This document shows, piece after piece, positions 18,812-58,211 of a stretch of DNA of 64,000 bases. Origin of the DNA: Bolinopsis microptera (Eukaryota; Ctenophora; Tentaculata; Lobata; Bolinopsidae); contig NC_087084.1 of the NCBI RefSeq assembly GCF_026151205.1, positions 7,985,394 to 8,049,393 on the forward strand, in the 5' to 3' direction. Position numbers and translations under genes: made by a program. Each line of letters begins with the position of its first letter. Position 1 is the stretch's first letter. The notes beneath the pieces are model-generated. The model ran no database searches, was not told where the DNA came from, and saw only the letters and a list, made by a program, of their open reading frames with translations.

Positions 18812-18902
18812 GTATTACGAGAGTCAGGACAACTGTGAGGAATTGTTCAGAGAGGCTGGTCTCGTGTACGTTCCTGAGTGTACCGACACATACCGTAGAC
18901 AG
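18812..18902 (+). CDS. ARIH1-like: Ariadne-type RBR E3 ligase, exon 4
   Basis: The acceptor TTGACCAG completes the split lysine codon and encodes YYESQDNCEELFREAGLVYV, then PECTDTYRRQ, ending in phase 0 at the donor GTAGAT. In ARIH1 the same place holds RYFDGNLEKLF followed by a basic/threonine linker to RING1. No RING1 exon follows nearby. Instead the intron contains LINE fragments and the antisense nuclease-helicase array. The next in-phase exon I can find is at 58,158. A 15-base echo of the exon end (ACACATACCGTAGA) sits at about 19,005-19,019. Confidence 0.88.
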
Positions 18903-19650
18903 GTAGATTATTAATTTACTATTTATTCATTTACTAAATTGATTTGTAATTTAATTTTTAGTATTTTTAGTATTTATACTAGTGGGAGTGGTTTAACATG
19001 TTTAGACACATACCGTAGAAACTAAAAAGGGTAAATTACCAATTTACTGAAATGATTGAGTATTTTAGCGATCAACAATTAATAAAACAAATATTTAATA
19101 AAACAAATATTTATTTTTACGGCACAATCAAACAATATCAATAACAAATAAATCAGGGGAGGTGGAGGTTTGAAGAGGTTTCAAGTGGCGAAGGCCACTG
19201 CTTATCTTTAAGATTTTAGAGTGACCTGTGCTTGAAACCCCCTCAACCATCCACTACGTCATTATACTCGTTATACAAATTATATAGGAAAATATAATAA
19301 TCTAAAATTACTTATTGGTTTAGTTTGGTGACATAGGAGAGCCCAGTTGAGTTTTAGTTTAGGTTTAGGATTTAAATCATAGTTTAAAAGGTTAGCCATG
19401 TTTCATGGCCGAGAGAGATATCATGTGTGCAGAGCCGTACCGGATTTAGAATTTGAGATATAATATAAATTAGTTACCATGTATTAAGGGTCATCTCGAT
19501 TTTGGAGGGATAGCAAGTGCTTTTTAAGGTTAGATTTAATAATACCTGACGAGGCTGACAAATCTGAATTCTTGGAAGAACCCGGGATTATTATCCCATC
19601 TTCATTAGCATCACATATTTCGAATACATAGGGGCTGACTTACTGACTTG
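18903..19650 (+). other. Start of the large ariadne-type intron
   Basis: AT-rich intronic sequence with no exon recognised. It contains a short echo of the exon 4 end near 19,005-19,019. An imperfect inverted repeat near 19,170-19,245 has GAGGTTTCAAGTG facing GCTTGAAACCCC. Confidence 0.45.
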
Positions 19651-19652
19651 AC

Positions 19653-19994
19653 TTAAGGCGGGTAGTATTCCCGAGATCCATTGACAACAGTTCTCCACAG
19701 CTTTCTGTCCTCCATCAGTCTAGCTATCTCATCTACTGATTTCAGCCCAGTATCTGCTTTTAGGTTATCTAGTAGTGTTAGGTAAGGTCGCCCCCTGTTA
19801 GTATGCCCATGACTCGGCTTCCAGAGGATCAGTTTGTTCAGTGTCAGCTCCGGATGTCGGTGAGCATGGCCTGCAAGTCTGAGCCTTCGTTGGGTTATCT
19901 TGGAGCTGACTTTAGGAAGATCACCGTACAGACTGTGGTTGCTGACATGGTCTCGATATTGATTGATGTTAAGGGCCATAGGGGCTGAGGTCAT
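19653..19994 (-). pseudogene. LINE C-terminal fragment, related to the 6.3-9.4 kb LINE
   Basis: The minus-strand frame shows SLYGDLPKVS, RRLRLAGHAHRH, RGRPYLTLLDNL and a C-terminal DRKLWRTVVNGSR. These align by eye with the tail of the LINE at 6,349-9,414 (DLYGNIPKPS, RRMRLAGHVAR, RPHLTFLDML). The bases just downstream (AAGTCAAGTCAGTAAGTCAG) match that LINE's 3' end. It is a 5'-truncated insertion of the same or a sister family. Confidence 0.85.
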
Positions 19995-20565
19995 TCCAAA
20001 TTTTCGTAGAGGTGTACAAAAAGTTCTGTTGGGAGATATCTAACCTCAGTAATGGGACAATCAGACGAAGTTTTTCATTTCTAGGACAGAACTGGAAAAG
20101 ATCTTTAATCGACTGGGGGACATCAAATTTAAGAATTTTGAATAGTTCCATAAATGTATGGTACATGTGCAGATTCTCCAGGTTCATAATATCTGCTCAG
20201 TGAATAGCGGTTTAGTGTGTTCAAGACAGTAGTTCTTGCTAGCCATATGTTCGTTATAAGTTCTTGAACGTGCACAGGTTAAATAGTATTCCTTATGATC
20301 AAAATTTGGAATGTTACCAAATAGCAGTCTTATACATCGTTTTTGAATTGCAAAGATTTTATTCAGCTTATGTTTAGGGATCTCACCCCAGCAACTTATA
20401 CAATAGCTAAATGGTGACATAAAAAGAGCATTGTATAGATTCAAATATTCAGATTTGGGAATGAATTTGCAAATTCTCTTAATCGATACAATACTGGAGT
20501 TCAGCTTAAAGATAAATGATTAAGATGTGGTTCCCAGCTTAGCTGATCGTCTATTATACAATTAA
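19995..20565 (-). pseudogene. LINE (CR1/jockey-like) reverse transcriptase tail
   Basis: Minus-strand readings give LSWEPHLNHLS, FIPKSEYLNLYNALF, then SYCISCWGE, LNKIFAIQKRCIRLLF and TSTKIWNDLSP. This pattern (YCxxxWG ... LxxIxxLQKRxIRxI ... WNxLP) typifies the end of CR1/jockey-type reverse transcriptases. Frame changes split it into at least two pieces. It abuts another LINE tail, so one inserted in or next to the other. Confidence 0.8.
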
Positions 20566-20967
20566 ATCAGGCCAAGAAGTTCACGTTTACTTTAATTGAG
20601 CTACTATATAAAACTTGATTTTATTTATATTTTAGTAATAATAATAATCTAATTTGATAAGTGGAAGTAACAAGTTACATAACGAGACAATTGTAATAAT
20701 TTTGTTACAATGTAAGGTATAATAATAATTCTGTTCAACTTTCAAAAGTTACTTCTACATAAAACAAAAAAAAAGCCATTTCATAGCTTCGTCTAAAATA
20801 TCATAAATATAAAATCAGTAGTATGGTAATATCATCAACTACATAGTAAAATAAAACAGTACAAACATGAAGCAATTCATTCTGATGTTAATTCACAAGA
20901 TATTTAAATCCCTAATTAATAAATTAATCTCATTCAATTAATAAATTGTATTTTAAAGTTTGAAGTG
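20566..20967. other. 3' flank of nuclease-helicase copy 1
   Basis: This is AT-rich sequence shared with the 3' flanks of other copies. Where sisters have TTTATTCACAAG (AATAAA on the transcribed strand), this copy reads TTAATTCACAAG, so the polyadenylation hexamer is altered. Confidence 0.6.
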
Positions 20968-23218
20968 TTAGTGATATCTTACTTCAACAGAATCTTTGAG
21001 TTTATCAAGTAGACTACACATGCGATGATAATCCTCAAGTATCGTACCTTTTTCAGGATACATTATTACTGTGCACTTAACTCGTGCTCGTGACATGGCC
21101 ATATATAAATGTTCTGAATCAAATGACATGGCCATATATAAATGTTCTGAATCAAATGACAACTTTTCAGGCCCTTCAATAAGTGTATCAGCTTCATAAT
21201 CATATAATTGCTGCAGTGTTATAACTGCTGGCCATTCTTGTGAATATGTTGACACCACCCCCCTTGGTGTAATATCTTTTGAAAATAATATCCTTTCCAC
21301 AATGGTTTTAACTAAATTTGTTGTGTCATTTTCACTGAGAGTATAAAGAATACCCACATCATTACCATCTATCATATCATCAAAACATAATTCATGAAAT
21401 TCGTTGTCAAAAATAGAATATATAAGTTCCTCGTTAAACTTTTGCAGAACATGCACGATAGTTTTTGGTCCATGTATGTAGTGCCCGGGGACTTGTAAAA
21501 TTGCGAAATCATTTCTAAATTTTGATACAAGGTTTCCCGGCTCAATGATATGTTCTCGAATTACTGACAATGTTCTCGACAAATCAGAGGTGTTTCTCAA
21601 GTTCTTTGATAAACTTACAGGTTGTGTAGATGATAATTTGTCGTTAAAAAGTGCTGCTAGTCTAGAGGCATGTCCAAACATTTCCTCCTCATCAGCATCA
21701 TAAATAGGGCTTTGTAACGTGTCACATGAGATCCAAACATGACAAGAACATGGCAGTTCTAAAAATGCTCTAAATATCTCATAGATTTTATTGATGTCTT
21801 CTTTTACTCTATTCCACCTGAACAGTCCTTGAATATCGTCGAAAAACACGTGAATTCCTTTTCCTTGAAATAAACGTATTAAGATTATTAACGATGTATT
21901 ATCTATGCCTTCGATATAGTTAGTTTCAGCATTAAAATCCTTAAGCATCATTATGACAACTTGATTGTCATTAAGATAGCCTCTTATTGTACTCCAGAGT
22001 TCATCAGCAGGTTTATCAGCTATTTCTGTTACAAAAATAAAAACGTGCTTAACACCTGCTTTTTCTAACGGCTTATGTAGATGCTCTGGGGATGTCATGA
22101 CTTCATCAGTGTGACACGTTTCACAGAATAAAACAATTATGTTTTCTTCATTTGACAATGCTAGTTGTAGCATCTTAGCTAGTAGTACAACAGTTTTACC
22201 AGCTCCAGCGGGTCCATTGATCCACAAGAACTTCTCATCTGAATTTATCAAATCGTACTGTTGTTTAGTCAAGTTGTCTATTCCTAAAAAGTCCTTGACA
22301 ATCGTGGGTGATGGAATGACGTCAGGGTTATTGCTTCTGAAGGTAAATCTTCCTGAACGCAGTTGCTCGCCGATTTTTACTATATACACTTACCCAAACT
22401 ACATTTGGACTTATCACAAATGGTCTTGTCTGTACACCATATAGCTAATAATAAGTTCCTAACATTTTCATGTTTGGTGCGAAACTCAGGACGCAAAGGC
22501 TCATCCAAGACTAGATCACTTACATTGTCTTTCCACCAATCACTAAAATCTTCTAAATCTTCTTTGAAAATTATTGACGAAAGTTTATCTCTGCTTATCG
22601 GAAATTCTTTCTTGAATGCTCTTTCAAAGTTGGGGTAATATATGGTAAACTGGAGAACTGTTAACCGTTTACAAAATCTCTTAACAAATTGTACCATCTT
22701 GTTCCTCTGGTCCAATGATTTCTGGAAAGTTTTGGCCAACGCTTGCGACTGTTGATTATTGTTACACCCAGGGTCTGATTGATTCCTGATATGACCCATA
22801 TTCTTCACTTCAATAATTACAAAGCAGTTTGGTGCTATAACTACAAAGTCGCACTCGCCTTCTCGGTTAGTTGCTCTCTTCTTACACTCTGTACATTTTC
22901 GTTTAACATGGGTTAAATCTCCCAGATAATATTGGAAATGAGTATATTCAAAACTATGAAGAACAATAAAATCTCCTCCACTCAGTTTCTCTAAAGCTCT
23001 GTATACAATAACCTCAGCCTCATAGTTGAGTTGCTGGTTTCTGTCATTTTCAAAACTACATCCGGGCTTATCTTCAGGGTAAAGGTCTACATACTTTTGT
23101 TGAGGAGCTCTAGGTAACATGATGGGATCTTTGTCTCCATGCCAGTTGAACAGTATGTTTCAAATATCTCATTTCCATTCCGCAGATATTTCTCGTACTG
23201 TGTTTCTTTCTTGGTCAT
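20968..23218 (-). pseudogene. NERD nuclease-helicase copy 1 (frameshifted)
   Basis: This copy has the same architecture as the intact copies: a NERD-type nuclease-like domain with GECDFVVIAP and IEVKN, then an SF1-type ATPase with GPAGAGKT, VFFDDIQG, SKNLRNTSDL and SRARVKC. The ATG expected by homology is at 23,218. Compared with sister copies, a 4-base insertion near 23,140 and a 2-base insertion near 22,383 break the frame into three pieces. A 33-base tandem duplication (21,092-21,157) also repeats the segment before motif VI in frame. The N-terminal half is almost identical to copy 3. The polyadenylation hexamer is altered. It is probably a pseudogene, although the shifts could be sequencing errors. 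Confidence 0.88.
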
Positions 23219-26109
23219 AGCAATCGTTACTGTAGTGCAAACGTTTAGTACTTTAGTCTTAATTAACCTTGTCAGCTAAACAAATTAAGAATAATACGGA
23301 GGTTCTGATGCTAGGAGTTATCACCCATCAAGTATCAGTACTTAGGGTTTTAGCGAAAAATATATTTATATACAGGGCCCAGGGGGGGGGGGGGGCCAAA
23401 CTCAGTACCCATACGTTGGGTCTTATACCACCGCCGTGTTTTATATTTGAGAGTTGTTGCTTTGCAGATGGCATACTTTACCTACTTGTTTGAGGATTCC
23501 GTCACCAAAATTTGAAATTTCGATTTTTGGGGCCCACACCCAATCAGCATTGAATTGCTTATACTCGTGTTTGTGAACATGTCAGAGACTCTGTTGTAAC
23601 ATAATATTGCAATAGGTCATTTAATCCGGAATATGATCTGAAAAGATGGTGCGAAACGGATTTAAAATGACAAAGTTATCAAGCAATTTTTTTATCTAGT
23701 TAGCAAAATTGATTGGGTAATCAGTGATTACCTAATTACGACACCGTAATTGGGCTCTCTGCACGATTCCCATAATGCGGATCTAGCCTCAACCTAATCA
23801 CCTGATCAAGTGATCACATCTGAGAAGCTAGAACTCTCATTTTTTCAGGACAATTTTAATTTAAATGACCAAACACCATTCAATAATATTTGGCTCGATC
23901 CGACTATCCAAACTATCAAATAAATGCGAAAATGAATCTTCATTTGGAAAAATTAACACGAATATTTTTCGATTTGACAAATTCCTCGAACCAGTGGTGG
24001 TAGTAAGTCATACCGGAAAGAATTATTTCAATTGGGGACTCAATGACTGAGCTATTAAGGCCAACGTATGGGTACTGACTTTTGCCCCCCGGCTCCCTTC
24101 CCTGTACATTTTAAAAAATACCTTAATCAACATAGTTATTAATAACTACGACTTAGTTATTACTAACTTTACAACGCAAGATAATGAAATAACACGAAGA
24201 ATTATACCTCACGAAACACAGAAAGCACAAAGAGAAATGACAGAAAAGTTACACTCACTAATTATAACACGGCTCATCTCCCGGTATTACATAATTCACA
24301 TTCCAGAACAACAGAACTACTCTTCTTAGATCATGGTACTGGAATGTGCGTGTGTAGTGTACGCTTGTGAGTCGTGCGTTCAAGCAAACGAGATTTTACG
24401 ACAAACAAGCGCTCTGGTGGGCTAGGGGTAGCGTGCATGTGCCGTATAGGATATGGCCTGTCAACTGGGAAAAACATTTTTCGTCCTCGGACCCCCAACC
24501 CCCCCCCCACCTTCATAATATTGTAATAATTTAATTATTTAGTACTGATGTTATAGTGACGTATTTAAGTTGTAATGACATTCTAACTCGATATACGGAA
24601 CCGACTGGACTGGGATTTGGGCTCCCAGACCGGTAACTGCCGGATATCAATCTTTTTCCCGGTAAACCGGATCTTAACTCTAAGTTCAACCGAATTGAGT
24701 TTAAATGTCTAATGTTGTAGTAGTAATGGTGTGCAATAAATACAAATTAAAAAAACTTTAAAAGCATTTTAGTTAACTTAGATCTGCGATAAAGTTATCA
24801 TTAACTTTACAACGTAAGATAATCAAGTAACACGAAGAAATATACCTCACGAAGCACAGAGAGCACAAAGAGAAATGACAGAAAAGTTACACTCACTAAT
24901 TATAACACGGCTCATCTCCAGGTATTACATAATTCACATTCCAGAACAACAAGAGAATTACTCTTATTATATCATGGTACTTGAAATTTGAATGTGTGTT
25001 TGTGACGTGTATGATCGTGAGTCAAGTGTGTGCGTCATGTGTGTGTGTGCACGAAACTAAGCCGAAATGTTTTACAGAACCTTTCATGTAATCCAATAAT
25101 AACGGTCATAACACAAGGCATAATATCTTGCTAATAATTCAAAACGAACGGGGCTCAACCAAAGGAATATAACAACAATATAAATATACATGTTATGGGA
25201 CCAAAATTATAGTGTCCATTAAAGAATTAAGGCCACAGAGGCCAGAGGGGGGGGGGGGGGGGTCAATTTTGATATTTTGGGATATGTTGTAGAGCTCGGC
25301 ATACATTTTCTAATGCTTTTGTTCTTATCGAAAGAGAACTAGTTTCCGTTTTTAAAATAAAAACTTCAATGAATGCATACTGACAAAAAGGGAACTAGAA
25401 CGAACACCGATGGGACATTAAGACAACATTAAGACAATAATAAGACAACAATAAGACAACATTAAGACAACAATAACTATAAGACAACATTAAGACAACG
25501 TTAACGCAACAAACACCAATAAGACAACAAACGATAAGACAACATTAAGACAACATTAAGGCAACATTAAGGCAACATTAAAGCTTTAAAGCAAAAATAT
25601 TGTTCTTGGACCCCACCCCCCCCCCCCCCCCCCCCCCCCTTCATAATGGGAGATGAACAACAACAGAACTACACTTCTTAGATCATGGTATTGCAGTGCT
25701 CGTGTATAATCTCTGGACGGTTTGAAATTTTCAGTTGATTTCTGGCAACTTTTAAACCGGACCAGGGCTTAAACCGGATTAAGTTTTAGACGGATATTTA
25801 ATTTTAGATGTTGTAAAGTGAAAAATATAAACCAGTTATTACACGTCATGATAACTTAATAAAACAGTTATAATGCAATTTTTACATATTATATATGATA
25901 AATATTCTGTTAAACTGACAAGGTCACTGCAACTGTGTTCCGGCTCAATCATATCATCAACTACAAGCGAAGATAAAGTAATACAACATCAGGCTTTATC
26001 AAGTTTATACTTTTCAAATTATACCGATGTTTATTCACGAGATATTTAAATCCCTAATTAATAAAGTAATCTGGTTCAGTTAATTAATTGCATTTTAAAG
26101 TTTGAAGTG
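23219..26109. repeat. Array spacer 1-2: shared repeat blocks and homopolymers
   Basis: No gene was seen. The spacer contains the recurrent block R (CACGAAGAAATATACCTCAC ... CATTCCAGAACAAC) twice, at about 24,170-24,340 and 24,800-24,985. A second shared block is at 25,095-25,340. There are G or C runs at about 23,382-23,393, 24,498-24,510, 25,247-25,261 and 25,612-25,639. A block shared with every 3' flank (TCTCTGGACGGTTTGAAAT) lies near 25,705. Confidence 0.75.
25410..25580 (+). repeat. (AAGACAACATT)n minisatellite
   Basis: Irregular tandem copies of TAAGACAACA / AAGGCAACATT lie in the spacer between copies 1 and 2. They are absent from the other spacers I compared. Confidence 0.8.
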
Positions 26110-28314
26110 TTAATGATATCTTACTTCAACAGAATCTTTGAGTTTATCAAGTAGACTACACATGCGATGATAATCATCAAGTATAGTACCTTTCAAATTA
26201 GGAAACATTATTACTGTGCACTTAACTCGTGCTCGTGACATGGCAAGATATAAAAGTTCTGAAGCGACAGATAAAAGTGTCTCAGTTTCACTTGAATTAA
26301 ATAACTGTTGCAAAAATATAACTGCTGCAGGCAATTCTTTTGAATATGTTGACAGCACAAACCATGGTGTAACATCGCGATCGTTTGAAAATAATATCCC
26401 ATCCACAATGGTTTTAACTAAATTGTCTTTGCCATTACCCTCAAGATTGTAAAGAATACCCACATCATTACTATCTATCATATCATCAAAACATAATTCT
26501 TTAAATTCCTTGTCAAAAATAGAATATATAAGTTCCTCGTTATACTTTTGCAGAACATGCACGACAGTTTTTGGTCCATGTATGTAGTGCCCGGGGGCTT
26601 GTAAAATGGCGAAATCCTTTCTAAATGTTGAAACTATGTTTCCCGGCTCAATGATATGTTCTCGAATGACTGACAATGTTCTCGCCAAATCAGAGGTGTT
26701 TCTCAAGTTCTTTGATAGACTTACAAGCTGTGTAGATGATAATTCGTAGTTAAAAAGTCTGGTTAGTCTACAGTCATTTCCGAACCTTTCCTCCTCATCA
26801 GTGATATAAAGAGGACTTTGTAACGTGTCACATGAGATCCAAACGAGACAAGAACATGACAGTTCGAACAATGTTTTGAGTAATTCATAGTATTTATTTG
26901 TGCCTTCTTTTACATTATCCCAACTGAACGTTCCTTGAATATCGTCGAAAAACAAGTGAATTCCTCTTCCTTAAAATAAACGTATAAAGTACGTTAGCGA
27001 TGGATTATTGATATTGTTGATACCCCCAGTTTTAGCATTTGAATCGCTGACCATTATTATGACAACTTGATTGTCATGAAGATAGTCTCTTGTTCTACAA
27101 TAGACTTCATCAGCAGTGTTATAGAATATTTCTCTACCAAAAATAAAAATGTGCTTAACACCTGCTTTTTCTAGCGGTTTATGTAGATGCTCTGGGGATA
27201 TCATGGCGTCACCAATGTTACACGTTTCACAGAATAACACAATTTTGTTGTCTTCACTTGACAATGCTAGTTGTAGTATCTTAGCTAGTAGTACAACAGT
27301 TTTACCAGCTCCAGCGGGTCCATTGATCCACAAGAACTTCTCATTTGAATGTATCAAATCGAACTGTTGTTTAGTCAAGTTGTCTATTCCTAAAAAGTCC
27401 TTGACAATTGTGGGTGATGGAGTAACTTGAGGGTTATTGATTCTGAAGGTAAATTTTCCTGAACGCAGTTGTTTGTTGATATTCACTACACGCTTACCCA
27501 AACTACATTTGGACTTATCACAAATGGTCTTGTCTGTACACCATATAGCTAATAATAAGTTCCTAACATCTTCATGTTTGGTGCGAAACTCAGGATGTAA
27601 AGGCTCATCCAAGACTAGATCACTTACATTGTCTGTCCACCAATCACTAAAATCGTCCAAATCTTCTTTGAAAATTATTGATGAAAGTTGATCCCTGCTT
27701 AGCGGAAATTCTTTCTTGAATGCTTTTTGAAAGTTGGGGTAAACGGTAAACTGGAGTACTGTTAACCGTTTACAAAATCTCTTAATAAATTGTAGCATCT
27801 TGTTCCTCTGGTCCAGTGATTTCTGGAAAGTTTTGCACAACGCTTGCGACTGTTGATTTTTGTTACACCCAGGGTCTGATTGATTCCCGATATGACCCAT
27901 ATTCTTCACTTCAATAATTACAAAGTAGTTTGGTGAAATCACTACAAAGTCGCACTCGCCCTCCCTGTTAGTTGCTCTCTGCTTACACTCTGTACATTTT
28001 CGTTTAACATGGGTTAAATTTCCCAGATAATATTGGAAATGAGTATATTCAAAACTATGAAGAACAATAAAATCTCCTTCACTCAGTTTCTCTAAAGCTC
28101 TGTATACAATAACCTCAGCCTCGTAGTTGAGTTGCTGGTTTCTGTCGTTTTCAAAACTACATCCGGGCTGATCTTCAGGGTAAAGGTCTACATACTTTTG
28201 TTGAGGAGCTCTGGGTAACATGATGGGATGTTTGTCTCCAGTTGAACAGTAGGTTTCAAATATATCATTTCCATTCCGCAGGTATTTCTCGTACTGTGTT
28301 TCTTTCTTGGTCAT
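26110..28314 (-). pseudogene. NERD nuclease-helicase copy 2 (one nonsense codon)
   Basis: The reading frame is continuous from the ATG at 28,314 to the stop at 26,110 except for one TAA at 26,971-26,973. There the sister copies have the CAA glutamine of RLFQGKG, just before the VFFDDIQ (Walker B) strand. The NERD domain (GECDFVVISP ... IEVKN) and Walker A (GPAGAGKT) precede the stop. FFDDIQG, SKNLRNTSDL and SRARVKC follow it. Truncation would leave the nuclease half plus Walker A only. A polyadenylation hexamer is kept at 26,030-26,035. Either a young pseudogene or, less likely, a truncated functional product. Confidence 0.88.
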
Positions 28315-30828
28315 AGCAATCTTCACTGTAGTGCAAATGTTTTGTACTTTAGTATAAATTAACCTTGTCAGCTAAAGAAATATAAAACAATACCGAGGTT
28401 CTGACGCTAGGAGTTATCACCCATCAAGTATCAGTACTTGGGGTTTTAGCGGAACTATTTTTATAAAGATACAACCTGGTAGTAAGAGGAGTCCCGGATT
28501 TGCCCCTTGCTAAACTCCTTCTCACTTTCTTAGTAGAAAAGCAGCAGTCACCACTTATATTATTGAGGTGACAACCAGCCCCCTTTAATGACAGGTACAG
28601 AAAGTGGAATTTAAGATGCAGAGTGATAACGAGTCGTGGCGTAACGTTGTCTGTTGGCGCCCTCCCGCTGAAAAAGCGCCCCCAAGTTGGCGCCCCCTCC
28701 CCTTTTGGTGCCCCTCCCTAAAATTGAATAAATTAAGTGATTTTAGAGCATACGCCGGTAAAATCTCTAAAAAAGTGTGCATCTAGAGTAAAATGCGCAG
28801 TTTTGCTAGTACTTTAGTTAAGTTTACGAAATTGTCCCACATTCAAACAACGATTTGGCGCCCCCCCCCCCCCCCCCCCAAGACGGCGCCCCCCCCCCCC
28901 CTCTCCCCGCACAGCGGGATCAGCGGGGCCCTTCGTTACGCCACTGAATTAAAGACACGTACAAATAAAGACAAATGTTGAAATACCTTAAGTAACATAA
29001 TATATCTTAATAACTACGACTAAGTTATCACTAACTTTGCAACGTAAGATAATCAAATAACACGAAGAAATAAACCTCACGAAACACAGAGAGCACAAAG
29101 AGAAATGACAGAAAAGTTACACTCGCTAATTATAACACGGTCCATCTCCCGGTATTACATAATTCACATTCCAGAACAACAACACACAACAGAACTACTC
29201 TTCTTAGATCATGGTACTTGAAATTTGAATTTATGTGTGTGATGTGTATGCTCGTAAGTCGTGAGTGTGCGTGCACGAAACTAAGCCGAAACGTTTCACA
29301 GAACCTTCCATGTAATCCAATAATAACGGTCATAACGCAAGGTATAATATCTTGCTAATAATTCAAAACTAACGGGGCTCAACCAAAGGAATATAACTAC
29401 AGTATAGTTATACATGTTATAGGACCAACATTCAAGTGTCCATTAAAGAAGGCCACAGAGAGAGGGGGGGGGGGGGGGGCGAGGTCAATTTTGACATTTT
29501 GGGATATGTTGTAGAGCTTGGCATAAATTTTCTAATGCTTTTGTTCTTATCGAAAAAGAAGAAGTTTCCGTTTCTAAAATTAAGGTTTACATTTAATTTT
29601 ATTGTAAATGAAAACTTCGAATGAAATTTTGTTTGAAAGATCTTCTTTTACAGTTGTAAAGTTAAGACCTTGTTACTTAGGTCACGTGTTCTTCAAGTCT
29701 TGTAGAGATGAAAATGATAATATAGATAGCAGGAACCCGTATAATATAACCCTAAACGGTGTCAAGACTCAAGAGACTAAAATGATTATTACCTATTTAA
29801 TTGGCGTTTTTGACACCACTTGCGGGTCCAAATTTTGGGCTCTAAAATCATTATTCCTTGGCCAATTTTTTATTTGTTCATGCTGATTTGTAGGCCATTA
29901 AAGTATTTGACCCAGTCAAAAAAGTTTCAGTTGTATATCTTTTACGGTTTTTGCAGAAAGTCACGTTAAAGTTGATGCCGTGGTGTCAGTAAAATGGCAC
30001 AGATATATATATATATATATATATCGTCTCGCTTTATATATAGTAAGATAACAGATATGTGGGCGTGGGATGACCGATTGACTGCTATAGAAAATCTTGA
30101 CTTTAGATTTGAGCAACAAAATATTAAGAATCTGTAATTTACGAGCTTAAAAGGTTAATTGATTAAAGGGTCAACTGTTAACGTCAATTTCACAACAAAC
30201 TAGGCGCTCTGGTGAGCTAGGCGTTGAGGGTAGGCGCCGGGTAGGACAAAGCCTGCCTACTGACAAAAATATTTATTGTTCTCGAACCCCCCCTCCCCCT
30301 CATAATGGGAGATGAACAACAACACTACTCTTCTTAGATCATGGTATTGCAGTGCTCGTGTATGATCTCTGGACGGTTTGATATTTCCGGTTGATTTCCG
30401 GCAGCTTTTACACCGGACCAGGGCTGAAACCGGATTTAGCCGGATATTTAATTTTAGATGTTGTAAAGTGATAATTATAAAGCAGTTGGTACACATAATA
30501 ACTTATTAAAACAGTTATAATGCAATTTTTACACATAATAATAATTTTGTTAAACTAACAAGGTCACTACTACATAATACAACTGGTTGACAAAGTTTTA
30601 AAATTAATTTGATAGAATCGTCTAAAATATCATGCTTATATAAAATCACATACATTTACTATTATTAGAATTATCATCAATTACAAACAAATATAAAGCA
30701 GTACAACTTCAGGCTGTACACTTTTCAAATTTATCATGACGTGATGATGTTTATTCACAAAATATTTGGATTATGAATTATAAATTAATCTGGTTCAGTT
30801 AATAAATTGTATTTTAAAGTTTGAAGTG
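28315..30828. repeat. Array spacer 2-3
   Basis: No gene was seen. The spacer holds a hAT-type MITE copy, one copy of block R (about 29,030-29,215), a shared block with a G run (29,300-29,600), a (TA)n tract at about 30,003-30,024, and the TCTCTGGACGGTTTGA block (about 30,370). Segment 29,700-30,830 reappears inverted at 62,930-64,000. A polyadenylation hexamer for copy 3 is at 30,750-30,755. Confidence 0.75.
28634..28946. mobile_element. hAT-type MITE, second copy
   Basis: This copy is closely similar throughout to the element at 4,871-5,160: GTGGCGTAACGTTG at the left, CGTTACGCCACTG at the right, and the GGCGCCCCCTCCCC body. The target duplication is not clear. Sister spacers (for example at about 52,090) have AGAGTGATAAAGACACG uninterrupted, which is the empty site, so the MITE landed after the array had duplicated. 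Confidence 0.85.
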
Positions 30829-33529: not shown

Positions 33530-33660
33530 AAACTAGAGGATGCTGCTAGCTTGACAGGTGTTGACAACATCAGCCGAGATGCAGTACGACAGTTAGCTCT
33601 GAACCGAGTGGAATGGAAGAACCTGTTTCGCCGTAAAAGGGATGTGCAGAGTTAGAGTTT
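33530..33660 (+). pseudogene. LINE tail scrap, also at 37,592-37,715
   Basis: The plus strand reads DAVRQLALNRVEWKNLF followed by basic residues. This resembles the extreme C-terminus of LINE proteins (xDRxxWRxx). The same scrap lies at the same place in the next spacer and was therefore present before that unit duplicated. It is too short for a firm family call. Confidence 0.4.
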
Positions 33661-48557: not shown

Positions 48558-48563
48558 TTATAA

Positions 48564-49309
48564 ACCCCTCCGGGTTAGTGCTAGGACCAACAAATTTGAC
48601 ATTTTACTCTTAATTCTAGCTATATGAGATCATTATGGAAAATATGAAATGGAATTGGGGACTACCAAATAAATACAACTAAGGTACTATGACTTTTGAA
48701 ATTGGCGTTATATCTTAACATTATTCCTCAGTCAGAACGTTGAATGAATATGAATATCGATAAGGGGCGTCGAGTTAAGCCTGGCAAGCGATAAAAGCTA
48801 ATAATGATATCGTGTCATGAAGTTCATCAAAGTAGACGACTATAATACATGGCTTATATCAAACACGACAAAATTAACCGAACCAGACAAAATCAAATGT
48901 AACCGTCGAGACAAGTTATGGAACTGGTCCAATTAATGTAAGAGTTTAAGTAATGTAAGCAGTGTGCTGGAGTTTTGCCAGCGCTTGCAATTAGACCGAT
49001 ACGTAGATCGAGTGTATTTATAGTTCTTACGTTAAGCCATAGGTCACGTGACATTTTTTACCAATGCGCGTCGTAGTAGTTAGTCACGTGATACACGTCA
49101 TAAAAACACGTGACAGTGCGCGGTTGAAATTCTCATGGAATATCAAAACAAAACAAATCTTGTTGAGCCAAATTAGCGGGGCGGGATTATAAAAGCTGTG
49201 CCGGGGTTATTTATTCAGCGGGAAAAAACTAACAGCTGGGAGCCTGGATTATCAGAATCTATTTAGCTGGAGCCGGGATTTTCAGAATCTTATTCTATCC
49301 CGGAGGTGT
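48564..49309. mobile_element. 746-bp TIR element B sharing the TTATAA site
   Basis: The element begins ACCCCTCCGGG and ends CCCGGAGGTGT. It uses the middle TTATAA (48,558-48,563) as its left flank and 49,310-49,315 as its right flank. It has no coding frame. It lies head to tail with element A, so the original single TTATAA is now present three times. Confidence 0.8.
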
Positions 49310-49579
49310 TTATAAAGCAGTTGGTACACATAATAACTTACTAAAACAGTTATAATGCAATTTTTACATATATATGATAAATATTCTGTTAAATTGACAA
49401 GGTCACTGCAACTGTGTCCCGGCTCAATTATATCATCAACTACAAGCGAAGATACAGTAGTACAACATCAGGCTTTATACTTTTCAAATTATACCGATGT
49501 TTATTTACAAGATATTTAAATCCTTAAATAATAAAGTAATCTGGTTCAGTTAATTAATTGTATTTTAAAGTTTGAAGTG

Positions 49580-51778
49580 TTAATGATATCTTACTTCAAC
49601 AGAATCTTTAAGTTTATCAAGTAGACTACACATGCGATGATAATCCTCAAGTATTGCACCTTTTACAGGAAACATTATTACTGTGCACTTAACTCGTGCT
49701 CGTGATATGGCAAGGTATAAAAGTTCTGAATCAAATGAAACATTTTGAACAGACACTCCAGTCAGTATCTCAGCTTTATAATCAAATAACTGTTGCAGTG
49801 CTACAACTGCAGGCCATTCTTTTGAATATGTTGACGTCACCTTCCTTGGTGTAATATTTTTTGAAGATAATATCCCATCCACAATGGTTTTACTTAAATT
49901 ATCTGTGTTATTATCCCAAAGATTGTAAAGAATACCCACATCATTACCATCTATCATACCATCAAAACATAATTCTTTAAATTCCTTGTCAAAAATAGAA
50001 TATATAAGTTCCTCGTTATACTTTTGCAGAACATGCACGACAGTTTTTGGTCCGTGTATGTAGTGCCCGGGGGTTTGTAAAATGTCGAAATCGTTTGTAA
50101 ATGTTGATACAAGGTTTTCCGATTCAATAATATGTTCTCGAATGACTGACAATGCTCTCGACAAATCAGAGGTGTTTCTTAAGTTCTTTGATAGACTTAC
50201 AAGCTGTGTAGATGACAATTCGTCGTTAAAAAGTTTGGCTAGTCTAGAGTCATGTCTTAACCTTTCCTCCTCATCAGCAATATAAAGAGGACTTTGTAAC
50301 GTGTCACATGAGATCCAAACGTGACAAGAACATGACAGTTCTAATAATACTTTAAATATATCATAGTTTTTATTGATGTCTTTTTTTACTTCATCCCACC
50401 TGAACACTCCTTGAATATCGTCGAAAAACACGTGAATTCCTTTTCCTTGAAATAAACGTATTAAGTATATTAGCGATATGTTATTGATATGTTCGATATC
50501 CTCAGTTGTACCATTTAAACTCTGAAGCATTATTATGACAACTTGATAGCCTTTTATTTTACGCCAGATCTCATCAGCAGAAATACCAACCATTTCTGTA
50601 CGACAAATAGAAACGTGCTTAACACCTGCTTTCTCAAGCGGCTTATGTAAATGCTCTGGGGATGTCATGTTTCCATCAATAACATACGTTTCACAGAATA
50701 ACACAATTTTGTTGTCTTCACTTGACAATGCTAGTTGTAGTATCTTAGCTAGTAGTACAACAGTTTTACCGGCTCCAGCGGGTCCATTGATCCACAAGAA
50801 CTTCTCATTTGAATTAATCAAATCGTACTGTTGTTTAGTCAAGTTGTCGATTCCTAAAAAGTCCTTGATGATCTTGGGTGATGGAATAACTTGAGGGTTA
50901 ATGATTCTGAAGGTGAATTTTCCTGAACGCAGTTGTTCGTTTATGTTCACTATACACTTTCCCAAACTACACTTGGACTTATCACAAATGGTCGTATCTG
51001 TACACCATATAGCTAATAATAAGTTCCTGACATCTTCATGTTTGGTGCGAAACTCAGGATGCAAAGGCTCATCCAAGATTAGATCACTTACATTGTTGTT
51101 CCACCAATCACTAAAATCTGCCAAATCTTCTTTGAAAATTATTGACGAAAGTTTATCCCTGCTTATCAGAAATTCTTTCTTGAATGCTTTTTCAAAGTTG
51201 GGGTAAACGGTAAATTGGAGAACTGTTAACCGTTTACAAAATCTTTTAACAAATTGTACCATCTTGTTCCTCTGGTCCAGTGATTTCTGGAACGTTTTGG
51301 CCAATGCTTGCGATTGTTGATCTTTGTTACACCCAGGGTCTGATTGATTTCCGATATGACCCATATTCTTCACTTCAATAATTACAAAGCAGTTTGGTGT
51401 TATCACTACAAAATCGCACTCGCCTTCTCTGTTAGTTGCTGTCTTTTTGCACGTTTTACAGTTTCGTTTATCATGGGTTAAATCTCCCAGATAATATTGG
51501 AAATGAGTATATTCAAAACCATGAAGAACAATAAAATCTCCTCCAATCAGTTTTTCTAAAGCTCTGTATACAATAACCTCAGCCTCATAGTTGAGTTGCT
51601 GGTTTCTGTCGTTTTCAAAACTACATCCGGGCTGATCTTCAGGGTAAAGGTCTACATACTTTTGCTGAGGAGCTCTGGGTAACATGATGGGATGTTTGTC
51701 TCCAGTTGAACAGTAGGTTTCAAATATCTCACTCCCATTCCGCAGGTATTTCTCGTACTGTGTTTCCTTCTTGGTCAT
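49580..51778 (-). CDS. NERD nuclease-helicase copy 6 (intact, reference copy)
   Basis: This is an unbroken frame of 732 codons from the conserved ATG at 51,778. Domains by residue: N-terminal lead 1-60; NERD-type PD-(D/E)xK fold 65-140, with Asp122 in ECDFV and Glu135/Lys137 in IIEVKN; a cysteine group CKTC (107-110) plus Cys121, possibly metal-binding; and a linker with a second cysteine group (CTD ... CDKSKCSLGKC, 259-275). The SF1-type ATPase follows: Walker A GPAGAGKT 332-339, Walker B FFDDIQ 451-456, WISCDTLQ 488-495, Arg-containing LRNTSD 533-538, and motif VI SRARVK 692-697. There is no signal peptide or membrane segment. AATAAA lies 75 bases past the stop. The role is unknown. Nuclease plus ATPase suggests nucleic-acid processing. 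Confidence 0.92.
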   Translation of the reverse strand: MTKKETQYEKYLRNGSEIFETYCSTGDKHPIMLPRAPQQKYVDLYPEDQPGCSFENDRNQQLNYEAEVIVYRALEKLIGGDFIVLHGFEYTHFQYYLGDLTHDKRNCKTCKKTATNREGECDFVVITPNCFVIIEVKNMGHIGNQSDPGCNKDQQSQALAKTFQKSLDQRNKMVQFVKRFCKRLTVLQFTVYPNFEKAFKKEFLISRDKLSSIIFKEDLADFSDWWNNNVSDLILDEPLHPEFRTKHEDVRNLLLAIWCTDTTICDKSKCSLGKCIVNINEQLRSGKFTFRIINPQVIPSPKIIKDFLGIDNLTKQQYDLINSNEKFLWINGPAGAGKTVVLLAKILQLALSSEDNKIVLFCETYVIDGNMTSPEHLHKPLEKAGVKHVSICRTEMVGISADEIWRKIKGYQVVIIMLQSLNGTTEDIEHINNISLIYLIRLFQGKGIHVFFDDIQGVFRWDEVKKDINKNYDIFKVLLELSCSCHVWISCDTLQSPLYIADEEERLRHDSRLAKLFNDELSSTQLVSLSKNLRNTSDLSRALSVIREHIIESENLVSTFTNDFDILQTPGHYIHGPKTVVHVLQKYNEELIYSIFDKEFKELCFDGMIDGNDVGILYNLWDNNTDNLSKTIVDGILSSKNITPRKVTSTYSKEWPAVVALQQLFDYKAEILTGVSVQNVSFDSELLYLAISRARVKCTVIMFPVKGAILEDYHRMCSLLDKLKDSVEVRYH

Positions 51779-53913
51779 AGCAATCTTCACTGTAGTGCAA
51801 ATGTTAAGTACTTTAGTCTTAATTAACCTTGTCAGCTAATCAAATGTAAAATAATACCGGGGCCCTAACGCTAGAAGCTATCGCCCATCAAGTATCAGTA
51901 CTTAGGGTTTTAGCGAAACTATTTTTATAAAGATACAACCTGGTAGTGAGAGGACTCCCGGATTTTGCCACTTGCTAATTCTGTCACTTTCTTAGTAGAA
52001 AAGCAGTGGTCATTACTTATTGCTTGATTGAGGTGAAAACCAGCCCCCCTTAATTACAGGTACAGAAAGTGGAATGTAACATGCAGAGTGATAAAGACAC
52101 GTACAAATGAAGACAAATGTTGAAATACCTTAATTAACTTAGATCTTAATAACTACAACAAAGTTATCACTAACTTAACAACGTAAGATAATCAAGTAAC
52201 ACGAAGAAATATACCTCACGAAACACAGAGAGCACAAAGAGAAATGACAGAAAAGTTACACTCACTTATTATAACACGGCTCATATTCCGGTATTACATA
52301 ATTCACATTCCAGAACAACAGAACTACTCTTCTTAGATCATGGTACTGGAATGTGCGTGTGGTGTGTACGTTCGTGAGTCGCGACTTCAAGCTAACGAGA
52401 TTTTACGGCAAACAAGCGCTCTGGTTGGCTAGGGGTAGCGTGCAATGTGCATGCGCCATGTAAGATATGGCCTGTTAACTGGGAAAAATTATTTTTGTCC
52501 TCGGACCCCCCCCCCCCCCCCCCACTTTCATAATGTAATAATTTAATTAGTTTAGTACGGATGTTATAGTGATTTGTTTAAGTACTATTACCAATTTATC
52601 TCGATTTATGTGGAACCGACTGGTCTGGGGTTTGGGCAACCGGACCGGAAAGTGCCGGATATCAATCTCTTTTTCGGTTAAACGGATCTTAACTCTAGAA
52701 ACTGAATTGAGAGTAAATCTTTTTATGTAGAATTAAAGGTGCTAAGAGACATAGAAAGACACATACAAATGAAGACAACTTCAACAGCATCTGATTAACT
52801 ACGACTAAGTTATCACTAACTTTGCAACGTAAGATAATCAAATAACACGAAGAAATAAACCTCACGAAACACAGAGAGCACAAAGAGAAATGACAGAAAA
52901 GGTACACTCACTAATTGTTACACGGCTCATCTCCGGCCGGTATTACATAATTCACATTCCAGAACAACAAGAGAACTACTCTTCTTATATCATGGTACTT
53001 GAAATTTGAATTTGTGTGTGTGTGACGTGTATGCTCGTTAGTCAAGTGTGTGCGTCATGTGTGTGCGTGCAAGAAACTAAGCCGAAACGTTTCACAGAAC
53101 CTTCCATGTAATCCAATAATAACGGTCATAACACAAGGCATAATATCTTGCTAATAATTCAAAACGAACGGGGCTCAACCAAAGGAATATAACAACAATA
53201 TAATTATACATGTTATAGGACCAACATTTAAGTGTCCATTAAAAAATTAAGGCCACAGAGAGAGGGGGGAGGTCAATTTTGACATTTTGGGACATGTTGT
53301 AGAGCTCGGCACAAATTTTTTAATGCTTTTGTTCTTATCGAAAGAGAAGTAGTTTCCGTTTCCGTTTCATGTTATTTTATTGTAAATGAAAACTTTAAAT
53401 GAATGCACTCTAACAAAAATATTTATTGTTCTTGGACCCCCCACCCCCCCCCCCCCCCTTCATAATGGGAGATGAAAAACAGCAAAACTATTCTTATTAG
53501 ATCATGGTATTGCAGTGCTCGTGTATTATCTCTGGACGGTTTGAAATTTCCGGTTGATTTCCGGCAGCTTTTAAACCGGACCAGGGCTGAAACCGGATTT
53601 AGACGGATATTTAATTTTAGATGTTGTAAAGTGATAATTATAAAGCAGTTGTTACACGTTATAATAACTTGATAAAACAGTTATAATGCAATTTTCACAT
53701 ATTATATATGATAAATATTTTGTTAAACTGACAAGGTCACTGCAACTGTGTCCCGTCTCAATCATATCATCAACTACAAGCGAAGATAATGTAGTACAAC
53801 ATTAGGCCTTATACTTTTCAAATTTTACCGATGTTTATTCACAAGATATTTAAATCCCTAATTAATAAAGTAATCTGGTTCAGTTAATAAATTGTATTTT
53901 AAAGTTTGAAGTA
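51779..53913. repeat. Array spacer 6-7
   Basis: No gene was seen. It carries two block R copies (about 52,170-52,345 and 52,800-53,000), C runs at about 52,507-52,523 and 53,442-53,458, and the CGGTTTGAAATTTCCGG block (about 53,538). It also holds the empty sites that date the spacer 5-6 insertions. A polyadenylation hexamer for copy 7 is at 53,834-53,839. Confidence 0.8.
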
Positions 53914-56121
53914 TTAGTGATATCTTACTTCAGCAGAATCTTTGAGTTTATCAAGTAGACTACACATGCAATGATAATCCTCAAATTTCGTACCTTCATC
54001 AAAAAACATTATTACTGTGCACTTAACTCGTGCTCGTGACATGGCAAGGTATAAAAGTTCTGAATCAAATGAAACATTCTCAGTCCCTCCAGTCAGTGTA
54101 TCAAGTTTATAATCATACAACCGTTGCAAAACTATAACTGCAGGCCATTCTTTTGAATATGTTGACATCACCCTCCTTGGTGTAATATCTTTTGAAAATA
54201 ATATCCCATCCACAAATGTTTTGACTAAATTTTCTATGTTACTATCAGGATCACAGAGAGTATAAAGAAATCCCACATCATTACCATCTATCATATAATC
54301 AAAACATAATTCATTAAATTCTTTGTCAAAAATAGAATATATAAGTTCCTCGTTAAACTTTTGCAGAACATGCACGATAGATTTTGGTCCATGTATGTAG
54401 TGCCCGGGGGCTTGCAAAATGGCTAAATCATTTTTATATATTGATACTATGTGTCCCGGCTCAATGATATGTTCTCGAATTGCTGACAATGTTTTCGACA
54501 AATCAGAGGTGTTTCTCAAGTTCTTTGATAGACTTACAAGCTGTGTAGATGACAATTTGTCGTTAAAAAGTTCTGCTAGTTTAGAGTCATTTCCGAACAT
54601 TTCCTCCTCATCAGCCTTGTAACTGGGGCTTTGTAACGTGTCACATGAGATGCAAACATGCAGACAAGAACATGACAGTTCTAACAATGCGTTTAATATC
54701 TCATAGTCTTTATTTGTGCTGTCTTTTGGCATATCCCACCTAAACACTCCTTGAATATCGTCGAAAAACACGTGAATTCCTTTTCCTTGAAATAAACGTA
54801 TTAAGGTTATTAGCCACGCATTGCCAAGACATTCGATATGCGTAGTTTCAGTTTTAAAATCCCTAATCATTATTATGACAACTTGATTGTCATTAAGATA
54901 GCTTTTTATTTTACGCCAGAGTTCATCAATAGGTTCTGTATCAGAATAAATAGGAACGTGCTTAACACCTGCTTTTTCTAGCGGCTTTTGTAGATGCTCT
55001 GGGGATGTCATGGCGTCACCAATGTTACACGTTTCACATAATAGTACAATTTTGTTGTCCTCATTTGACAGTGCTAGTTGTAGCATCTTGGCTAGTAGTA
55101 CAACAGTTTTACCAGCTCCAGCGGGTCCATTGATCCACAAAAACTTCTCGTCTGAATTTATCAAATCTTACTGTTGTTTAGTCAAGTTGTCTATTCCTAA
55201 AAAGTCCTTGACAATCGTGGGTGATGGAATGACGTCAGGGTTATTGCTCCTGAAGGTAAATATTCCTGAACGCAGTTGTTCGCCGATTTTAACTATACAC
55301 TTACCCAAACTACATTTGGACTTCGTACAAATGGTCTTATCTGTACACCATATAGCTAATAATAAGTTCCTAACATGTTCATGCTTGGTGCGAAACTCAG
55401 GATGTAAAGGCTCATCCAATGTTAGATCACTTACATTGTCTTTCCACCAATCACTAAAATCTTCCAAATCTTCTTTGAAAATTATTGACGAAAGTTTATC
55501 CCTGCTTAGCGGAAATTCTTTCTTGAATACTTTTTCAAAGTTGGGGTAAACGGTAAACTGGAGAACTGTTAACCGTTTACAAAATCTTTTAACAAATTGT
55601 ACCATCTTGTTCCTCTGGTCCAGTGATTTCTGGAAAGTTTTGCCCAATGCTTGCGACTGTTGATTATTGTTACACACAGGGTCTGATTGATTCCCGATAT
55701 GACCCATATTCTTCACTTCAATAATTACAAAGCAGTTTGGTGTTATCACTACAAAATCGCACTCGCCTTCTCGGTTAGTTGCTCTCTTCTTACACTCTGT
55801 ACATTTTCGTTTAACATGGGTTAAATCTTCCAGATAATATTGGAAATGAGTATATTCAAAACTATGAAGAACAATAAAATCTCCCCCACTCAGTTTCTCT
55901 AAAGCTCTGTATACAATAACCTCAGCCTCGTAGTTGAGTTGCTGGTTTCTATCATTTTGAAAACTACATCCGGGCTGATCTTCAGGGTAAAGGTCTACAT
56001 ACTTTTGTTGAGGAGCTCTGGGTAACATGATGGGATGTTTGTCTTTAGTTGAACAGTAGGTTTCAAATATATCATTTCCATTCTGCAGGTATTTCTCGTA
56101 CTGTGTTTCATTTCTGGTCAT
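53914..56121 (-). pseudogene. NERD nuclease-helicase copy 7 (one nonsense codon)
   Basis: The frame is continuous from the conserved ATG at 56,121 to the stop at 53,914 except for one TAA at 55,168-55,170. There sister copies have the tyrosine codon TAC of KQQYDLIN, about 10 residues before Walker A. All later motifs are intact (GPAGAGKT, FFDDIQG, SKNLRNTSDL, SRARVKC). It has an extra residue in SCLHVCIS. Sequence homology with sister copies stops about 17 bases upstream of the ATG, directly at a CAG, so this copy has a different 5' region and marks the outer edge of the array. The polyadenylation hexamer is intact. Confidence 0.88.
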
Positions 56122-56320
56122 AGTAATCTTCGCTGCAGGGCTAGTGTTAATTGATAATTGTCTCAAATTACCTCGTCGGAAAATAAAATCAGAAATGGTA
56201 GCAATACTCTTGGCCCCGAAGCTGTCATTACTTTTTGGTCAAAGTAGAACCAGCAAATTCCTTAATAAATTCTGATAATTGTTAATATCGGTTTATCGCA
56301 CAATATTGATATGACTACTG

Positions 56321-56447
56321 GTGGAGAGGTGAAACATATTGGTTTTGACACGTGACAGAGATTAACCAATCAGATTCCAGAATTAACCAATCAAAGCCCA
56401 GAATTATTGTCATGTGTCGAACAAATATTGTTCACCTCCCCGCCAGT
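56321..56447. repeat. Second copy of the CACGTG-armed palindrome
   Basis: GGAGAGGTGAAACATATTGG followed by ACACGTGACAGAGATT and two CCAATCA words matches the element at 17,321-17,437, mirrored. The two copies lie on either side of the helicase array. Confidence 0.65.
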
Positions 56448-56615
56448 ATCCTCATCTAATATATCTAGTTATCAATATAAAACCTAAACGACTGACCAAA
56501 GGAAACGGACAATATTTTAGAACATTCTTATTTTCTGATAACATAAGTTAATTTGCTGTTATCAATCACCTGCTGTAGTGTTATGTTTCATTTAGTACGT
56601 GGAAAACACAGTATG

Positions 56616-57891
56616 GGGGGGGGGGGGGGGGGGGGAACCATATTAAAGTATATTAAAGTATATCCCCGGGTCAAAATCGGAAAAAATCCAACATTTTAAT
56701 ATACTTTAATATACCTACAATTAGAAGATTTATATTCTTCGTTAAGATTTACATGATGAACTATATTTTTCACTCAGATTCGCAAGATAAGCCTGTTTTA
56801 GGACTAGTACATGAATTTCCATCCAGATTGGTCAAAAATTGGCTGAGCTATGAGCTTAAAAGAAGAAATGCGGCCGCTTTTCTTTTGTGGATGGCCGCTC
56901 AATTTCCCGATCCGTGATGGCGTATTTTTCATATTCCGTACAAGTACAACCTGGGGACGGCCCAGTCTTTACTGTTTATATAAACATGCAAATATGGCGA
57001 AGTGACATGCGGACTGCCGAGCGCCGCCCAGTTAATATAATTATATATTGAATTTGAAAATCGTGTATACTTCTATGTAACCATATGTTTATTGTTTATG
57101 CAACCTGACACGGATCTGTGCAAAATAGTAATACTAACTCAAAATAATAATAATATGCTATCAATTAGTGCCTAGTGGGATACGCACATGATGAAATTAA
57201 TAATGTACTTGGTTGGTTCAGCGCCGCGCGCCAACAATTATAATTAAGATTATCACGCAAAATAACTTTGCGCAGGTAGTCACGTGGGCGATAACAGTGC
57301 TCGCAGGCACGTACGGCGGTCGCACGCTTGCAGGCACGGTCGCAAAGCTACCATATAAAAAAAACCTCGATCGCTAACCCTTGTCCTTGACTCTTTTGTG
57401 CCTTCAGCATCTTTGAGTCATGGATCGGGAAAAAATATGCCCATATTTGGGCATACACTTTTGCCCAAATTCGCTTTTGCCCAAATTCGATAAAATTTCA
57501 ATATTTTTTAATGAGACTAACTCTATGTGAAAGATATAATTCAGTGTTTGTTGAATATAGTGGATACTAAGTAAAAAGACCTCCATGAACAAAATTGGGC
57601 AAATTGCACATAATATCTCGGTTCGGAATACTAGCCAAAATGACTTCGTTAAAATTAAAATAACTCGATCAGTTTTCAATATTTTTTCATGAACTTTTTG
57701 GAATCGATTAAGAATTGCATTTCAAGCTTATTTTGGGCAACAATTTTTGATGTAGGCCTCCAAGGAGATAGGGATATATTAAAGTATATTGTAGGTATAT
57801 TAAAGTATATTAAAGTATATCCACGGGTCAAAATCGGGAAAAATCCTACATTTTAATATACTTTAATATGGTTGGCCCCCCCCCCCCCCCC
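56616..57891. mobile_element. TIR element with poly(G)/poly(C) ends
   Basis: A G run (from 56,616) followed by AACCATATTAAAGTATATT is mirrored by AATATACTTTAATATGGTT and a C run (to 57,891). AGTATG occurs on both outer sides (56,610-56,615 and 57,892-57,897), a possible 6-bp duplication. Subterminal sequence is dense in TATTAAAGTATA. The interior carries GC-rich phrases shared with 2,900-3,130. No transposase frame was seen. Confidence 0.75.
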
Positions 57892-58157
57892 AGTATGTTT
57901 GTAGAAAAAATAGCCGTTAGAATTAAATTAAATGATAATATATTGGAACCAAGATCCGCTTTATTTGAACCGGAGATTTCCGGTACTTTATTTTTTAAAC
58001 CCATGACCAGTCTTCGGTAATTTCACTTACGTGTCAGTTATCATAAACAGTATCTACTCAAATAAACTGATTTACCGCTGAGTTTGGGAAACAGAGGCAG
58101 CCGTGGAAAATCGGAGTTTGCAGTGAATCATGATTTTTACTGTACCCTCTTTTTCAG

Positions 58158-58211
58158 GTTTCTCGCAATACAATTAACGGAACGTGTATGGTCTGCTACA
58201 CGACTAACCTT
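58158..58211 (+). CDS. ARIH1-like: Ariadne-type RBR E3 ligase, exon 5 (start of RING1)
   Basis: A strong acceptor (CTCTTTTTCAG) opens 18 codons in phase 0, VSRNTINGTCMVCYTTNL, followed by the donor GTGAGT. CMVC is the first CxxC zinc pair of RING1. ARIH1 has an asparagine/threonine-arginine linker and CQIC-Y-LN at the same place. Joining to exon 4 keeps the phase and gives a linker length close to ARIH1. This implies a roughly 39-kb intron containing the whole antisense array. Remaining RING1-IBR-RING2 exons were not found before 64,000. The sequence beyond 58.7 kb is of doubtful integrity. Confidence 0.82.

Follow-up and report, generated by a model that had tools for sequence, protein, structure and literature searches.

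Can a single intron of an ariadne-type ubiquitin ligase gene house seven genes of another family on the opposite strand? This question is raised by a locus of the ctenophore Bolinopsis microptera, contained in the stretch C13:7985394-8049393 (64,000 nucleotides [nt]; here called the window), where exons of an ARIH1-like gene lie on both sides of an array of genes for a NERD nuclease domain followed by a helicase. For one of the ionotropic glutamate receptors of this genome, the best PDB sequence match was ML032222a, a receptor of the ctenophore Mnemiopsis leidyi. Positions given are those of the window, and "ext" marks window numbering carried on past 64,000. The evidence favors a single ARIH1-like host unit with a 39-kb intron 4 that would hold independent antisense NERD genes of a fast-evolving family, a reading to which we assign a probability of about 85%. 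The anatomy described in an earlier note on this DNA was confirmed to the base, while its interpretation needs two corrections: the sequence to the right of 58,723 behaves as an assembly artefact, and the array is not a simple local tandem expansion (see below).

Joining exons 1 to 5 rendered a single open frame of 127 amino acids that contained both HFKWNPERL and CMVC, the exon signatures named in the earlier note, and the boundaries followed the GT/AG rule (GT at the donors of the host exons, AG at the internal acceptors). The claim that exons 1 to 4 (17614-18902) and exon 5 (58158-58211) join in phase over ~39 kb was thus borne out. The peptide of exons 1 to 7 aligned with human ARIH1 (5udh) in one block (query 26-176, 5udh 8-158; E 1e-23), gapless at the exon 4/5 junction, and gave a lower match to ARIH2 (E 2.3e-10). 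After exon 7, exons for the second half of the IBR, RING2, and the Ariadne domain continued on the same (+) strand. Those located in ext 83834-85537, which cover RING2 (GGCNHM..C) and the start of the Ariadne domain, aligned with ARIH1 210-334 when their peptide, which included a few residues upstream of the exon start (LKCLSQ), was joined by hand. Phase and splice signals are by themselves weak evidence, since 62 open AG-54nt-GT segments, exon 5 counted among them, were present on the plus strand of 18903-64000. What identifies exon 5 is its RING1 homology together with its place beside exon 6.

To judge from the assembly, the host locus appears to be the only ARIH1-like locus found in the B. 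microptera genome. A whole-genome search with the Pfam IBR profile yielded six matches, and the one at the host locus was ARIH-like by reading. The exon-4 region matched at three places, namely, the host locus, an inverted haplotig (see below), and a spliced fragment on contig C7. For its part, the exon-5 region yielded eight matches, three of which covered exon 5 (the host locus, the decayed copy of C3, and, at ext 82155, a raw-read-like duplicate), whereas the remaining five spanned 62 to 80 bases and ended short of the exon. Besides the decayed copy and the raw-read-like duplicate, no alternative RING1-start exon was found in the assembly. Exons 1 to 4 of the host and of the haplotig were identical at 324 of 327 nt (99.1%) and encoded the same peptide, as would be expected of purifying selection acting on them between haplotypes.

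The dispersed fragments on C7 and C3 support both edges of intron 4 independently of the host contig. At C7:1555731-1555928, exons 3 and 4 were fused, without introns, to the final 17 nt of exon 2, and the initial 19 nt of intron 4 came directly after exon 4; exon 3 carried a 3-nt insertion there, and the exon-4 piece was 98% identical to the window. The fused exons are a fossil of partly spliced RNA, and they indicate that the predicted splicing of exons 2, 3, and 4 took place and that there was once an RNA keeping the start of intron 4. The fragment was followed by ~1.1 kb of sequence resembling a reverse-transcriptase element (by eye) and then by an antisense NERD copy, the 3' half of which was 83.5% identical to array copy 1; among the 22 longest of the 79 alignments at the C7 locus, its 3' flank was common only to array copy 1 and the haplotig counterpart of that copy. 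Given identities of 83.5% and 98%, it is uncertain whether this NERD copy arrived in the same event as the exon fragment. A functional ARIH paralog on C7 was ruled out, since the fragment lacks introns and retains nothing of the gene's coding sequence but exons 3 and 4 and the final 17 nt of exon 2.

At C3:14967815-14967868, a decayed copy of exon 5 was found, with 16 of 18 residues matching and the acceptor lost (by eye). The order was that of the window: an antisense NERD copy, intron pieces (matching 56283-56615 and 57894-58222), and exon 5. Both dispersed ARIH fragments lay less than 5 kb from an antisense NERD gene, a proximity for which we estimate a chance of ~0.2% per fragment from 91 NERD matches in 265 Mb. 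With the ARIH1 block across the junction, the lack of an alternative RING1-start exon, the purifying selection on exons 1 to 4, and these edge fragments, the earlier one-gene, one-intron reading is well supported.

Intron 4 was 65 to 234 times longer than the five other introns of the host gene that were measured (168 to 602 bp), i.e., introns 1, 2, 3, and 6, of 452, 168, 342, and 258 bp, respectively, and intron 5, of 602 bp once the artefact is removed (24,590 bp as assembled). The NERD-helicase copies fill 15,871 of its 39,255 bp. All seven were located inside this single intron and on the minus strand (Table 1), in agreement with the earlier description of seven copies on the opposite strand within the interval.

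TABLE 1 Host gene, nested array, and assembly blocks of the locus
Feature	Position	Strand	Observations
ARIH1-like exon 1	17614..17694	+	Start ATG, MFSDHDEDF...; 80/81 nt and whole peptide same on alternative haplotig
ARIH1-like exon 2	18147..18233	+	87/87 nt same on haplotig
ARIH1-like exon 3 (HFKWNPERL)	18402..18469	+	68/68 nt same on haplotig; on C7, intronless fusion with exons 2 and 4
ARIH1-like exon 4	18812..18902	+	89/91 nt same on haplotig; region present at three genome places
Intron 4, host of the array	18903..58157	+	39,255 bp
NERD-helicase copy 1	20968..23159	-	Frame-broken
NERD-helicase copy 2	26110..28371	-	In-frame TAA at 26971-26973
NERD-helicase copy 3	30829..33138	-	Intact
NERD-helicase copy 4	34899..37168	-	Frame-broken; Walker A is GPAGASKT
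NERD-helicase copy 5	39498..41753	-	Intact
NERD-helicase copy 6	49580..51835	-	Intact
NERD-helicase copy 7	53914..56238	-	In-frame TAA at 55168-55170
ARIH1-like exon 5, first CxxC of RING1	58158..58211	+	RING1 homology, position beside exon 6
Exon 6	ext 82802-82894	+	Beyond window
Exon 7	ext 83153-83208	+	Beyond window
Raw-read-like block	58723-66574 (window part 58723..64000)		Reverse complement of 27192-35010; 307 mismatches, 361 gap openings, 82% of gaps 1 bp
Clean inverted block	ext 66575-75540		Inverted, collinear with 14922-27898; second exon 1-4 set at ext 72937-74462
Raw-read-like block	ext 75523-82716		Direct copy of 51502-58728; 233 mismatches, 350 gap openings, 89% of gaps 1 bp
Third raw-read-like patch	ext 84551-85413		Against 85414-86249; 23 mismatches, 33 gap openings, 82% 1 bp

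The three intact open reading frames of the array encode 732, 758, and 734 amino acids, counted from the first Met. When these three copies were scanned, all scored above the cut-off of 22.1 bits for the Pfam NERD domain (PF08378), with values of 33.0 to 38.6 bits. Residues D122, E135, and K137 occupied columns conserved in at least 90% of a 10-member family alignment, and we take them to be the catalytic residues of the D...ExK motif of NERD. Downstream of the NERD domain, GPAGAGKT (a P-loop), FDDIQ, CDxxQ, NLRNT, and SRA were read by eye in the alignments; these presumably represent motifs I, II, III, IV, and VI of superfamily 1 (SF1) helicases, respectively. At the profile level, ResIII exceeded its Pfam cut-off in one of the three intact copies, and UvrD remained below its own in all three. 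An AlphaFold2 model built with ten window rows was unusable (mean predicted local distance difference test score, 36.2). Six of the seven copies have in common a T-rich stretch ending in TTAG ~57 nt upstream of the NERD ATG, and also CACTACAG, ending ~11 nt upstream of it, with copy 7 differing; both are possible splice or trans-splice acceptors.

A genome-wide search with the Pfam NERD profile rendered at least 91 matches, a figure that is a lower bound for the family; all of them lay on contigs C1 to C13, in keeping with 13 chromosomes. When matches were linked at 20 kb, the window cluster comprised eight members (the seven copies and a haplotig one), another six groups contained two each, and 71 matches were single; thus, the window cluster was the largest local cluster among the NERD matches found. 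Selection was evaluated by pooling pairwise comparisons among 8 of the 10 intact copies, with the two divergent ones from C8 excluded. Omega was 0.57 for the whole protein, 0.26 for the NERD domain, 0.24 for residues 182 to 360, and 0.50 for residues 481 to 600, rising to 1.27 in residues 361 to 480 (95% bootstrap interval, 0.95 to 1.73) and 1.07 in residues 601 to 720 (0.77 to 1.52). A constrained nuclease and ATPase core with two fast helicase segments would fit what is expected of conflict or immunity genes, relaxed constraint being the alternative.

The origin of the array is the point at which the earlier account has to be amended. Its proposal of array growth inside the host gene holds only in part: the copies did not form a single clade, and copies from C3, C2, and C11 were intermixed with them. 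The trees of the N-terminal and C-terminal halves conflicted, and dispersed copies were placed among array copies in them. Thus, copy 6 grouped with a C3 copy in both halves (support, 1.0), copy 4 with a C2 copy in the C-terminal half (0.97), and copy 5 with C11 copies in the N-terminal half (0.97). Because the C3, C2, and C11 copies fall among those of the array, exchange or transposition between the array and other chromosomes took place as well, and the array is not a simple local tandem expansion. At the same positions, the two haplotypes differed by 7 to 16% in NERD copy 1 versus 0.9% in exons 1 to 4, and the turnover of the array is therefore much faster than that of its host.

Under the preferred reading, intron 4 was probably once short like its neighbors and became a 39-kb landing site in which genes for a NERD nuclease with an SF1-type helicase multiplied, all antisense to the host and alongside transposons, the array being built through duplication as well as exchange with copies at other sites. 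The host would most likely still be transcribed as one unit, with 18902 spliced to 58158 and exon 6 joined next, over ~0.6 kb in the true genome. The NERD genes would most likely be independent antisense nested genes, presumably expressed, in which the nuclease and ATPase core is conserved while the helicase segments vary, and the family may play an antiviral or antitransposon role.

Several observations weigh against this scenario. The single host transcript is a deduction from genomic sequence. Spliced-leader trans-splicing is described as common in ctenophores in PMC8527503, so exons 1 to 4 could belong to one transcript and exon 5 and its successors to another. By eye, the first half of the IBR had no clean single open frame in the assembly, although the second half was present. 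Four of the seven NERD copies are broken, two by an in-frame TAA (copies 2 and 7) and two by frame breaks (copies 1 and 4); the stop in copy 7 is probably real, since it was also visible in the raw-read-like duplicate. Finally, the intervals of both fast segments, pooled pairwise estimates from 8 of the 10 intact copies, span 1.

The dispersal of the family raises the alternative that the NERD genes are cargo of mobile elements and that intron 4 is a transposon cluster. The 71 isolated matches are in agreement with it, as is the finding that two dispersed copies, one on C13 and one on C3, shared little with the array beyond the coding unit; with the C11 copies, by contrast, the array had several hundred bases of flanking sequence in common, and with the C2 copy separate flanking pieces. 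Cargo status is nevertheless unlikely, as the nuclease and ATPase core is under strong purifying selection. Moreover, when three dispersed copies were examined by eye for signs of retroposition, none showed a poly-A tail at its 3' end, and the stretches that were read revealed neither a transposase nor a terminal repeat in common, no systematic search having been made. Beyond the preferred reading itself, a bolder proposal would make intron 4 a hub of an antiviral-type family, with host transcription running antisense through every NERD copy and tuning the array by double-stranded RNA or transcriptional interference, and with the array both seeding and receiving copies genome-wide while turning over far faster than host exons between haplotypes; we consider this doubtful.

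Mobile sequences were also observed in their own right. The element at 45322-47738, inside intron 4, has 486-bp inverted ends that are 99.6% identical and looks like a recent insertion. Another insertion, of ~1.28 kb, occupied 56616-57893 and showed G-run/C-run ends and an inverted terminal sequence; it was missing from the C3 copy, which therefore represents the empty site. Outside the intron, an open retrotransposon-type frame of 1025 amino acids with endonuclease and reverse transcriptase domains was located at 6337-9414 on the plus strand. Scans of the window for tRNAs and with Rfam gave no match.

The trans-splicing mentioned above also underlies the proposal that the host is now divided by the array into two transcription units, with a polyadenylation site inside intron 4 ending the unit of exons 1 to 4, and with exon 5 and later exons transcribed separately or bearing a spliced leader. 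The 19 nt of unspliced intron 4 on C7, which indicate that an RNA keeping the start of that intron once existed, would be in concordance with such a split. We consider it quite improbable, given the strict phase continuity, the single ARIH1 alignment block over the 4/5 junction, and the exon 1-4 peptide that is identical between haplotypes.

The second correction concerns the assembly beyond exon 5. The extended region was compared with itself, using alignments of at least 700 bp, and divergence was separated from read noise by dividing the number of mismatches by that of gap openings. All 24 alignments between array stretches in intron 4 were clean (ratios of 8.2 to 78), in contrast to 0.85 and 0.67 for the two fills on either side of the inverted block. 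The simplest reading is that ext 66575-75540 is the alternative haplotig placed backwards, both gaps having been filled by unpolished reads. This would fit the pipeline described for the B. microptera assembly in PMC10232365 (wtdbg2, HiRise, TGS-GapCloser, Purge Haplotigs, and pilon), a paper which also states that Iso-Seq and RNA-seq reads served in the annotation. Since the block is probably an artefact, 58729-82716 should be ignored, which would place exon 5 ~0.6 kb from exon 6. Farther on, ext 84551-86249 was a tandem duplicate of an Ariadne-domain exon, its first copy frame-broken.

Two apparent duplications were discarded in the same comparison. The inverted exon 1-4 copy was ruled out as a real palindromic duplication, being part of a clean 9-kb block between two raw-read-like blocks, with exons 99.1% identical. 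The second exon 5 near ext 82150 was ruled out as a real duplicate, being full of 1-bp indels relative to the 58158 region. A scaffold error of this kind would mislead annotation of the host gene.

That the array and exons 1 to 4 were wrongly joined to exon 5, the true intron being short, is very improbable despite the bad assembly directly to the right (the four blocks of Table 1) and the assembly pipeline cited above, since 18.9 to 58.7 kb contained no N and, in self-comparison, no indel-noise block (42 to 49 kb being checkable through few repeats only), the raw-like duplicate of 51502-58728 had exon 5 along with NERD copy 7, the haplotig had exon 4 with NERD sequence directly behind it, and C7 and C3 each keep one intron edge.

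If the preferred reading is correct, every full ubiquitin-ligase transcript should cross the array in antisense, and transcriptional interference, double-stranded RNA, and the cost of intron length can thereby be tested directly in an animal whose phylogenetic position is pivotal. The array also belongs to a large ctenophore gene family for which we found no paper and whose selection pattern resembles that of host-parasite conflict. A literature search combining NERD or Schlafen with ctenophores, and ARIH1 with nested gene, returned no paper on the family or the locus, and the term "NERD" was absent from the main text of PMC11797021.

Compared with known systems, the family shares with RTasNERD-Hel, the NERD+UvrD candidate, and GajB of PADLOC an order in which the NERD nuclease domain precedes an SF1-like P-loop, but its members are animal genes. 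The best PADLOC match was RTasNERD-Hel (copy 3, E 1.5e-9, best stretch at residues 79 to 244); it was not a whole-protein match, the best stretches (79-244 and 77-197) being confined to the NERD part or the P-loop. No reverse transcriptase partner was seen beside the array, the frame at 6337-9414 having its own endonuclease. No protein match of the family was obtained in phages or plasmids at E 1e-3, and none of 73 pattern matches in prokaryote genomes was confirmed, in a scan that detects close relatives only. For group 3 Schlafen helicases (PF09848), 2 of 10 family members matched weakly at the P-loop (E 0.0044 at best), and the Schlafen helicase score of copy 3 (12.6 bits) was below the Pfam cut-off of 24; the N-terminal nuclease of the family is NERD and not the Schlafen core. 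The host gene, for its part, has the order of N-terminal region, RING1, RING2, and Ariadne-domain exons of ARIH1 and other Ariadne RBR ubiquitin ligases (PDB 5udh and 4kbl), from which it differs in being lengthened by intron 4 and in an IBR first half that is not cleanly readable in the assembly.

The closest parallel to the arrangement itself is provided by Hormiphora californensis, for which PMC8527503 reports 2357 nested intronic genes in 1654 hosts, many of them flanked by transposons. As in that set, each NERD copy lies wholly inside one host intron, and since nested intronic genes are abundant in ctenophores, the nesting described here is ordinary in kind. According to the same text, the Hormiphora set rests on Iso-Seq-based annotation and also includes parallel cases, double nesting, and flanking transposons, with both strands represented in a figure legend, whereas the nesting in B. 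microptera is known from the genome alone. What sets the present locus apart is the size of the intron, its crowding, and the immune-like nature of the cluster: one intron, 65 to 234 times longer than the others, with seven copies of one family.

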